From Candidatus Nezhaarchaeota archaeon (GTDB lineage Archaea; Thermoproteota; Methanomethylicia; Nezhaarchaeales; WYZ-LMO8): a stretch of 64,000 nucleotides of DNA. The notes below the pieces were generated by a model that was given only the letters and a program-made list of their open reading frames with translations, did no database searches and was not told the DNA's origin. Position 1 is the first letter of the stretch, and every line of letters begins with the position of its first letter. The DNA lies in the NCBI GenBank assembly GCA_030055465.1, contig JASFYF010000001.1, forward strand, positions 537,179-601,178, written 5' to 3'. The translations under genes and the position numbers were made by a program. This document shows positions 16,678-24,760 of this stretch, one piece after another.

Positions 16678-16837
16678 TGGTGGGGCCGGAGGGACTTGAA
16701 CCCTCGACCAACGGGTCTCTCTCGCTCCAGAAGTTCGTCATCCCTTCTGGTCCGCAGACCCTAAACCATGACTTCTGGAGCCCTTAACGTTGGGCTTAGA
16801 GGCCCAATGTCGTCCTACCTTGCTAGACCACGGCCCC
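16678..16837 (-). tRNA. tRNA-Trp (CCA anticodon) with two introns
   Basis: On the minus strand the acceptor arms GGGGCCG/CGGCCCC, D stem GTC/GAC and T arm GAGGG-TTCAAGT-CCCTC are clear, with A73 and an encoded CCA. The anticodon stem only forms if two segments are removed. Intron 1 (16784-16808, 25 nt) lies between positions 28 and 29 and holds a TTGGG/CCCAA hairpin. Intron 2 (16717-16774, 58 nt) lies at the canonical 37/38 site. Splicing gives the stem ACGGG/CCCGT with the loop CTCCAGA, anticodon CCA. Intron 2 contains a CTTCTGGAG block complementary to the anticodon side, as is common in archaeal introns. Confidence 0.88.
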
Positions 16838-22720: not shown

Positions 22721-24402
22721 TTGTTAACAAAAGGGATTTAATGAAGCTTATAGGGGTTCGCGACATCAATGATGATGAACTCGTCAACGCTCTAGAGCTA
22801 ATTAAAGCCGAAGTTAAAGCAGTTGAAGTCGAAAGCATTGTGCTTGAGGTTACATCCGATAGACCGGACATGTTTTCGGCAGAGGGCATTGCAAGGGCGC
22901 TTAAAGGGTTTCTGGAGGTGGAAGTAGGTTTACCGCATTATAATGTGGAGAAAGCTGAAGGAAACAACTCAGTCCACGTATACGAAGAAGTCCTCAATGT
23001 AAGGCCTTGTATAGCCTGCGCCGCCGTCAAAGGATGCAGCTTCGGGGATGAAGAGTTAAGGCAGCTCATTCAACTGCAGGAGGCACTGCATAGAACTTAC
23101 GGGAGGAACAGAAAGAAGCTTGCAATAGGGCTCCACAACCTAGACGTCGTGGAGCCGCCCATATCCTACACCGCTAAGCCGCTCGACTCATTCTTCTTCA
23201 TTCCACTCGATGAAAGCAAGGAGGTTACCGGAAGGGAGGTGCTCGAAAAACATCCAAAAGGTAAGGAGTACGGCTGGATCATAAGAGAAACCGGCAAGGC
23301 GCCTCTACTCTTTGACTCGAAAGGCGACATACTATCAATGCCTCCAATAATAAACTCCAATTTAACCAAGCTGACCTCCAACACAAGAAATATCCTGATC
23401 GACGTCACCGGAACCGATTTGAACGCCGTTAGAAGCGCGCTTACCATTCTAGCCGCTAACCTAGCGGAGAGGGGGGGAAAGATAGTCCAGTTTCTAGTAT
23501 TCGATCACCTTGGAAAGAGGCTGGAGCCCTCTATGAACGTAAAGGCGATGAAAGTCAGCTACGAGAAGCTCGTTAAAGTAACCGGAATCCAAGCGCCCAT
23601 CGAGGAGGTGGTCCACTGCCTAAGACGAGCTAGGCTGGATGCAAAGGCGATTGGAGGTTATTTTGAAGTGCTCATACCTCCCTATAGGGTTGACGTCCTC
23701 GACGAAGTTGATATAGCTGAGGAGTACGCGATAGGGTATGGATATCATAGAATAGCCCCCCTGACGCCCCCAGCGGACACGCAAGGCGAAGAGCTGAGGA
23801 TAACATCTTTTACTAGGCTGTGCAGAGAGCTGATGGTTGGGTACGGGTTTCAAGAAGTCTTAACTTACATGTTCGCCAATGACGATGAGCTACGGCTCGC
23901 CTCTTCAACCAATGGTTGGGTACGTGTTGCTAAACCGATCTCATCTGAGTACACTTGCCTTAGAACAAGCCTCATACCCTCTCTCTTGAGGTTTCTGGGT
24001 GAAAATACCCACATAGAATACCCTCAGAAGGTGTTCGAAGTGGGGGACGTGATTACACCCGACAAGGACTCCGACGTTAAAAGCTCTTCTCGGAGGATGC
24101 TGGCGGCACTTTACGCTGACCACAAAGTTGGTTACGAGGATGTGCAGGCCGTGCTTTACTCCCTCTTAAGGCTCTTAAACTTGGAGTTTGAGGTTAAAGG
24201 ATGCGATATAAAACCCATGATAAGGGGCCGGTGTGGTTCCCTATTCGTAGAAGGCGTCAACGTTGGATTCCTTGGCGAGGTTGAGCCGGAGGTTCTCCTA
24301 AGGTTTGGATTGCAAGTGCCAGTAGCAGCTTTTGAGGTCGATATATCGAGGATTTTCACTGTTCGGTCTACAAGTATTAATAGGAGGCCTAGCAGAGATT
24401 GA
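22708..24402 (+). CDS. pheT: Phenylalanyl-tRNA synthetase beta subunit
   Basis: A 564-residue archaeal-length beta subunit. LEVTSDRPDMFSAEGIARAL near the start is the B1-domain signature. The B3/B4 editing region includes PPIINSN and DVTGTDLNAV, and B5 carries PPYRVDVLDEVDIAEEYAIGYGY near 323. The catalytic-like core with SSEYTCLRTSLIPSLL follows. It lacks the extra bacterial EMAP and anticodon-binding domains, as expected in archaea. The stop at 24400-24402 is followed at once by a GC-rich structured segment, and a TATA-like element lies inside the last codons. Confidence 0.95.
   Translation: MPTIIVNKRDLMKLIGVRDINDDELVNALELIKAEVKAVEVESIVLEVTSDRPDMFSAEGIARALKGFLEVEVGLPHYNVEKAEGNNSVHVYEEVLNVRPCIACAAVKGCSFGDEELRQLIQLQEALHRTYGRNRKKLAIGLHNLDVVEPPISYTAKPLDSFFFIPLDESKEVTGREVLEKHPKGKEYGWIIRETGKAPLLFDSKGDILSMPPIINSNLTKLTSNTRNILIDVTGTDLNAVRSALTILAANLAERGGKIVQFLVFDHLGKRLEPSMNVKAMKVSYEKLVKVTGIQAPIEEVVHCLRRARLDAKAIGGYFEVLIPPYRVDVLDEVDIAEEYAIGYGYHRIAPLTPPADTQGEELRITSFTRLCRELMVGYGFQEVLTYMFANDDELRLASSTNGWVRVAKPISSEYTCLRTSLIPSLLRFLGENTHIEYPQKVFEVGDVITPDKDSDVKSSSRRMLAALYADHKVGYEDVQAVLYSLLRLLNLEFEVKGCDIKPMIRGRCGSLFVEGVNVGFLGEVEPEVLLRFGLQVPVAAFEVDISRIFTVRSTSINRRPSRD
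24375..24382 (+). promoter_or_regulatory. Candidate TATA box inside the 3' end of pheT
   Basis: TATTAATA lies about 26 bases before 24403-24404, where the first base-paired arm of the GC-rich RNA candidate begins. Position and spacing suit an archaeal promoter for an independent RNA. Confidence 0.4.
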
Positions 24403-24545
24403 GCGGGCCGCTGGGCTTTACCATAAAGCCGCAGCGACGGGGTGGAGGGACGATGAGGGGGTGGCCCAATGCATGATCTGCCACCTTACCCATCTGCGGC
24501 ACAGGCCCGGTGGCCAACGGAGCTGGAGCTCAAGCCCGCGCAGCG
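24403..24545 (+). ncRNA. Candidate structured RNA 1, downstream of pheT
   Basis: This GC-rich stretch has no credible coding frame but a dense set of nested helices. An outer stem GCGGGC (24403-24408) pairs with GCCCGC (24534-24539). A hairpin CGCTG-GGCTTTA/TAAAGCC-g-CAGCG spans 24409-24435. GGTGGC/GCCACC spans about 24460-24485, GGCC-cggt-GGCC about 24504-24514, and GAGC-tgga-GCTC about 24520-24531. A TATA-like element sits about 26 bases upstream of the first arm. It matches no RNA class I can name. It could also be a 3' UTR structure of pheT. Confidence 0.5.
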
Positions 24546-24620
24546 TAAAGCTAGTGCATCACTAAAGCCTTTTGCCCAAAGAGGTGAACGAGCTGAAATT
24601 GCAAGTTATGAGGAATTAAC

Positions 24621-24627
24621 CTTTATA
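24621..24627 (+). promoter_or_regulatory. TATA box upstream of structured RNA 2 and tyrS
   Basis: CTTTATA, within an AT-rich island, is centred about 26-27 bases before 24651, where the second GC-rich RNA candidate starts. This predicts a transcript beginning within 2 bases of its terminal stem and running into tyrS. Confidence 0.5.
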
Positions 24628-24650
24628 GGTTTATCCTTAGATTTACTTAA

Positions 24651-24760
24651 AAGCCGCGCCGCGTGGAAGTCCGCGCATAGAGAGTCCCCGTGGAGGGGGC
24701 ATCAGGCCCGAACTATGATGTCGGGTGGGTCAATGCGCGGTGACAACCGGCGCGGCCCAG
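24651..24760 (+). ncRNA. Candidate structured RNA 2, leader of tyrS or independent ncRNA
   Basis: About 110 nt fold into a rod with a branched tip. The terminal stem is GCCGCGCC (24653-24660) with GGCGCGGC (24749-24756), all eight pairs Watson-Crick. It is followed by a bulge, GG/CC, a symmetric AA/AA loop, GUC/GAC, and a second stem CGCGCAT (24672-24678) with ATGCGCG (24733-24739). Inside are a GTCCCC/GGGGGC hairpin and either CCCGA/TCGGG or the overlapping CATCA/TGATG, which exclude each other. The predicted TSS falls at its 5' edge. tyrS starts 20 bases after it. Confidence 0.6.

Follow-up and report, generated by a model that had tools for sequence, protein, structure and literature searches.

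The two structured blocks lying between pheT and tyrS in the window, the whole 64,000-nucleotide stretch of Candidatus Nezhaarchaeota DNA analysed here, are very probably archaeal box H/ACA pseudouridylation guide RNAs, which most likely direct Cbf5 to functional centres of 23S rRNA; this reading is the best explanation of their structure and of its conservation. Both are located in the intergenic gap between the end of pheT (24402) and the start of tyrS (24780). RNA 1 (24406-24515, 110 nt) is delimited by homologues and covariation and RNA 2 (24653-24756, 104 nt) by homologues in many lineages; each is a guide RNA inside an outer stem, and all features of the two are on the + strand. The GC content of both blocks is ∼0.64-0.65 as compared to ∼0.50 in the surroundings, and an AT-rich stretch separates them. 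When folded as a naked strand, block 1 has a z-score of −2.0 and block 2 one of −3.6, the whole region scoring −3.5. The nearest named relatives of the TyrS encoded next to them are those of Ca. Methanomethylicota SJ3.Bin21 (74%) and Ca. Nezhaarchaeota WYZ-LMO8 (72%).

The preliminary description recognized two GC-rich, self-complementary blocks with an AT-rich island between the two synthetase genes; this arrangement stands, while some of its boundaries and stems have to be redrawn. Block 1 had been extended to 24545, but comparison with five relatives reveals that the conserved unit stops at 24515, and its outer stem, given as 6 bp, comprises 12 bp. Comparison of homologues also replaces the four internal hairpins ascribed to block 1, and the two inner hairpins ascribed to block 2, with one composite hairpin in each block. 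In the five relatives, block 1 ends 4-8 nt before a conserved AACCTTTATAGG-type box. The ∼95 nt at 24516 to ∼24608, from RNA 1 to the putative promoter of RNA 2, is unique to the window genome, and its absence from the relatives identifies 24406-24515 and 24653-24756 as the true units.

The elements of each block follow the same order: an outer stem, a variable 5′ linker, the lower stem P1, the left side of a pocket, the upper stem P2 and a K-turn (an unbulged GA and a bulged NNN-GA), followed by the right side of the pocket, P1 again, the ACA box and, within 0-1 nt, the outer stem. The outer stem of RNA 1 pairs 24406-24417 with 24504-24515, the 3′ strand beginning directly after ACA; its 12 pairs in the window genome exceed the shuffled maximum of 10, and four of them show two-sided changes among six sequences. 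P1 pairs GCCGCAG (24428-24434) with CUGCGGC (24494-24500). The pocket carries a left guide, CGACGG (24435-24440), complementary to CCGUCG of 23S rRNA, and a right guide, UUACCCAU (24486-24493), which includes the ACCCA motif, whose first base stands 13 nt above ACA in almost all lineages read. The 5′ strand of the upper stem, GGUGGAGG, with the unbulged GA of the K-turn occupies 24441-24450 (GAC being invariant in the six family sequences), and the bulged GA with the 3′ strand, UCUGCCACC, occupies 24475-24485, where UGA is invariant. The K-turn GA and UGA are present in 10/10 members read, that is, six of the family and four more. The invariant ACA box (24501-24503) lies 15 nt below the top of the pocket and follows the 7-bp lower stem at once. 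Compensatory changes, which the preliminary description had proposed to look for in homologues, were found in the pairs of block 1 and in the upper stems: nine pairs of block 1 display two-sided changes among the six sequences, and its covariation was equalled in 0/500 shuffles.

RNA 2 is constructed similarly. Its outer stem, read directly in the window genome, pairs 24653-24661 with 24748-24756, and is present with differing sequences in most of the homologues. The lower stem P1 pairs CCGCGCAU (24671-24678) with AUGCGCGG (24733-24740), and the pocket consists of a left guide, AGAGAGU (24679-24685), and a right guide, GGGUCA (24727-24732). The upper stem comprises CCCCGUG with the unbulged GA (24686-24694), and the bulged GA, after UAU, with UGUCGGG (24717-24725). 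Both strands are supported by the own-partner pairing of P2 (116 pairs in 20 distinct members), as none of 5000 permutations was as good. Of the two K-turn GAs, one occurs in 22/23 members and the other in 21/23. The 8-bp lower stem is followed by 2 nt and then by ACA (24743-24745), which is invariant in the family and lies 16 nt below the first guide base; in most other members of RNA 2 the distance from ACA to the upper stem is 15 nt. Covariation of RNA 2 could not be demonstrated within the family alone, as the sequences are too conserved. The lowest naked-RNA energy belongs to a different apical fold (−58.4 kcal mol−1, as compared to −34.0 kcal mol−1 for the H/ACA fold, the latter value being that of a partial and protein-free structure). 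An alternative hairpin at 24679-24716, GUCCCC-GGGGGC, which forms in the minimum-energy fold, would occupy the upper-stem strand and is nearly invariant in the family; RNA 2 could conceivably switch between two conformers. On inspection, a two-hairpin minimum-energy fold of block 2 was not preferred, its second hairpin being absent from G006 and G008 and the H/ACA upper stem kept.

According to the published rules for archaeal H/ACA RNAs, ACA lies 14-16 nt from the upper stem, the lower stem has 7-9 bp and the G-A stem has 8-11 layers, usually 10 (PMC4652768). Application of these rules to 19 members of RNA 1 and 24 of RNA 2 returned regular guides with ACA at 15-16 nt and a G-A stem of 9-10 layers. 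The lower stem, with ACA directly below it, is kept across homologues, and the K-turn, the ACA distance and the upper stem are conserved jointly across lineages.

The outer stem departs from this pattern. In most members no nucleotide separates it from ACA, and at its longest it has 22 pairs; the mean number of pairs is 12.2 against 6.7 in shuffled sequences for RNA 2 (42 members), and 10.3 against 6.5 for RNA 1, a few members, including block 2 of the window, having been parsed by the script with a wrong P1. The outer stem of block 1 was not found in G006-G008. The 3′ strand of the stem follows ACA in the DNA, and no free tail is predicted directly after ACA.

The extent of conservation has been elucidated by searching the intergenic DNA against 101 genomes. 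All five other family genomes (G001-G005) gave strong matches to both blocks, always in the pheT-tyrS gap, so that both are present in all six Ca. Nezhaarchaeales genomes, the window's included. Covariance models built from the six family sequences extended the range. The model of block 1 matched G007, G008, G028 and Methanomethylicia, in the latter ∼160-260 nt upstream of tyrS; that of block 2 matched G006, G008, weakly G007, and Desulfurococcales upstream of tyrS, and homologues of block 2 also occur in G028 and Pyrodictiaceae. Reading of the intergenic regions gave the cores GAGAG ... GUGUUAG ... ACA for block 2 and ... ACCCA ... ACA for block 1. The core of block 2 is found near tyrS in Methanomethylicia, Bathyarchaeota-labelled MAGs, Desulfurococcales and Pyrodictiaceae, and in a further family (locus L129) both cores adjoin pheT. 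A phylum-wide pattern search returned true members, recognisable by their stems, mixed with many chance matches, for which reason no member number is taken from it.

Each block is preceded by a promoter-like box. The AT box ATTAATA (24376-24382), which may serve RNA 1 as its TATA element, lies partly within the final codons of pheT, and an ATTAATA/TAAATA box stands 28-32 nt ahead of the first paired base of block 1 in all six family genomes. The putative TATA element of RNA 2, CCTTTATAGG (24620-24629), keeps its spacing likewise: TTTATA begins 30-31 nt before block 2 in 6/6 family genomes. The earlier proposal of a TATA-like element at a set spacing before each block is thus borne out by the conservation of both boxes. 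In some genomes the box of RNA 1 extends into the 3′ end of pheT, and the fact that it is conserved therefore counts for less than in the case of RNA 2. The usual archaeal TATA spacing would place the transcription start on the first outer-stem base or directly beside it. The promoter and terminator scan was of bacterial type and hence uninformative for an archaeon. Each block is probably its own small RNA gene, transcribed from its own TATA promoter, as judged from the sequence.

The position of RNA 2 also allows another reading, in which block 2, or both blocks, would act in cis as the 5′ leader of the tyrS mRNA and control tyrosyl-tRNA synthetase, for example in the manner of a T-box or a riboswitch. 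In the window, block 2 has a promoter-like box of its own and stops 23 nt short of the tyrS start, too close for a separate tyrS promoter to fit in between; transcription of the tyrS mRNA there probably begins at that of RNA 2. The tyrS neighbourhood of RNA 2 is also widely kept. However, RNA 2 and tyrS are on opposite strands at eight loci of Pyrodictiaceae and related genomes (L027, L029, L032-L034, L038, L042 and L094), and the relative of RNA 2 in G006 and G008 is found downstream of the tyrS gene; in G008 it faces block 1. These placements indicate a free-standing RNA gene rather than a tyrS leader. The match of the pocket to 23S rRNA also argues against a leader, which is very unlikely; in the window's family, the tyrS mRNA may still carry RNA 2 at its 5′ end as a by-product of the arrangement. 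In G006 and G008 (L108/L118 and L109), pheT and tyrS are convergent, with RNA 1 on the opposite strand in G008; this layout is a rearrangement around the RNA pair. The original claim of two stable, presumably independently transcribed structured RNAs, whose family it did not recognise, is supported by the conservation, the compensatory changes, the promoter-like boxes and the tyrS-independent placement and orientation elsewhere.

Rfam covariance search gave the two blocks no match to a known family: no match in the region is above the gathering score, and only chance matches occur up to E = 10. The absence of tRNA, RNase P and SRP signatures noted in the preliminary description therefore holds. 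Matches in the whole window are confined to 5S rRNA and tRNAs; one of the latter, at 16681-16837 on the − strand, is a 157-nt tRNA with a long insert or several introns that was missed by ARAGORN. The H/ACA family itself is already known, and it is these members that are absent from Rfam. The lack of any Rfam match, together with an outer stem that falls outside the standard H/ACA definition, could also point to some other stable RNA (a divergent RNase P, SRP or 6S-like RNA, or a new ncRNA) whose ACA and K-turn likeness is accidental. SRP RNA, moreover, gave no match in the window genome, a single contig estimated to be 67% complete and, given this absence, probably missing sequence. It was found in 11 of the 12 relatives searched, including all five family members, which carry both blocks as well; the blocks were accordingly rejected as SRP RNA. 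Block 2 had also been considered as RNase P RNA, GGAAGTCCGC resembling an RNase P motif, and was rejected, the RNase P RNA being located elsewhere in the genome. Considering also the joint conservation of K-turn, ACA distance and upper stem across lineages, an accidental likeness is still less likely than a tyrS leader.

Potential targets of the two H/ACA guides were located by scoring every uridine of the genome's own 23S and 16S rRNAs against structure-defined guides, a gap of 2-4 nt being allowed; these guides recovered sites that hand-drawn guide windows had missed. E. coli numbers were mapped by conserved sequence rather than by structure-based alignment. For RNA 2, U2127 of the genome's own 23S rRNA ranks first both in Nezhaarchaeales and, when these are scored on their own, in the remaining lineages. 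Position-permuted guide sets were as good in 0/60 cases overall and in 1/60 in each group. By the conserved sequence GUAACUCUGACUCUCUUAAGG, U2127 corresponds to E. coli U1917 in helix 69. In the window, the left guide AGAGAGU pairs with 23S A1919-U1925 (ACUCUCU; E. coli numbering inferred), and the right guide GGGUCA with U1911-C1916, with one mismatch. Among the Nezhaarchaeal guides, AGAGAGU pairs with ACUCUCU and G(A/G)GU-A with U-ACUC; in other lineages GAGAG and GUGUUA pair with one mismatch, leaving three target bases unpaired. This complementarity suggests that the target of RNA 2 is most likely U1917 in helix 69, and RNA 2 is possibly also aimed at U1915.

For RNA 1, U2165 (E. coli U1955) ranks first and U2792 (U2586) second in all three groups. 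Full complementarity links the left guide CGACGG to CCGUCG beside U2586 and, in Methanomethylicia and G028, the right guide AACCCA to UGGGUU, but at U2586 the gap is 4 nt against the usual 2. CUUACCC of the Nezhaarchaeales RNA 1 is a perfect match to GGGUAAG before U1955, the gap there being 2 nt. The target signal of RNA 1 outside Nezhaarchaeales is not significant (18/60 permuted sets). The target of RNA 1 is most likely U2586 beside the peptidyl-transferase centre, or U1955, U2586 being favoured.

The same scoring bears on the least likely of the three alternatives, guidance of pseudouridine-35 in pre-tRNA-Tyr: tyrS is the neighbouring gene, such guides exist in Sulfolobales (PMC4652768, PMC7991803) and the genome has an intron-containing tRNA-Tyr, but U35 was picked by no guide in a scan of 30 genome tRNAs with their introns, the best tRNA match of RNA 1 (21.6, a uridine of the tRNA-Tyr intron and probably a chance match) is below its rRNA sites (25.4 and 22.6), and that of RNA 2 is 17.6 as compared to 22.6 for rRNA. 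The tRNA-Tyr gene (L147, G000:C1:923271-923396) contains a 54-nt intron.

As H/ACA guides, the RNAs would be transcripts of ∼105-115 nt beginning with the outer stem. The K-turn atop the upper stem would be the binding site of L7Ae, the ACA box and the lower stem that of Cbf5-Nop10-Gar1; the single-stranded pocket would then pair with both sides of a 23S uridine, which Cbf5 would convert to pseudouridine. The probable role of the outer stem behind ACA is to set the ends of the RNA and shield them. The genome contains a Nop10 gene and a Cbf5 gene, the latter in two pieces. The cbf5 gene (L171, G000:C1:478700-480100) is split into two frames between HGGTL and DPKVTG, and omission of ∼22 nt (GCCCGTTTAAAGGGCGGGGAGA) would rejoin them. 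The split looks like the archaeal cbf5 pre-mRNA intron described from Crenarchaeota (PMC2738675).

The closest known counterparts, as judged by target sites, are the haloarchaeal hairpins HP1 and HP2 (Hvo1/Hvo2; described as homologues of Pf7 II/III and Pab40; PMC2584109, PMC4652768), likewise a pair of hairpins. HP1 serves the equivalent of E. coli 2586 and HP2 those of 1915/1917, and the two are called homologues of Pf7 stems II and III (PMC2584109). Their sites fit RNA 2 clearly and RNA 1 possibly, U2586 being its second-best site; Hvo2 has also been modelled with a third unpaired target residue (PMC4652768), as RNA 2 outside Nezhaarchaeales requires. Unlike HP1 and HP2, each hairpin described here has its own outer stem and promoter-like box, and the pair lies between pheT and tyrS, being split onto opposite strands in some relatives. 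Homologues of Pf7-I and Pf7-II were not found in the crenarchaeote Ignicoccus hospitalis by an earlier study (PMC2584109). The lower stem, the pocket, the G-A stem of 9-10 layers, the K-turn and ACA at 15-16 nt are shared with the canonical archaeal H/ACA sRNAs of Pyrococcus and Archaeoglobus, whereas ACA here lies in an internal loop with an outer stem following it. The H/ACA-like sR201-sR210 of Pyrobaculum are also Thermoproteota guides with a K-turn and an ACA-type box, but mostly lack the lower stem, which is complete in the present RNAs and supplemented by the outer stem. The Sulfolobales guide for position 35 of pre-tRNA-Tyr (Sso1) is an H/ACA guide of the same phylum with a different target, and the pockets described here do not match U35 of tRNA-Tyr.

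In having an outer stem immediately behind ACA, these RNAs differ in structure from the archaeal H/ACA motif as described. This feature tentatively, and with considerable doubt, hints at a phylum-wide 'clamped' class of H/ACA RNAs in Thermoproteota, in which the outer stem stands right behind ACA and ACA lies in an internal loop. If such a class exists, Cbf5 would have to bind ACA without a free 3′ end; alternatively, the outer stem would be a signal for processing or circularisation. In haloarchaea, pseudouridines are present in helix 69 and in the peptidyl-transferase centre, and the present locus is a candidate guide pair for these sites in Thermoproteota. Its recognisable gene neighbourhood in many lineages makes the pair easy to annotate and test in many genomes.
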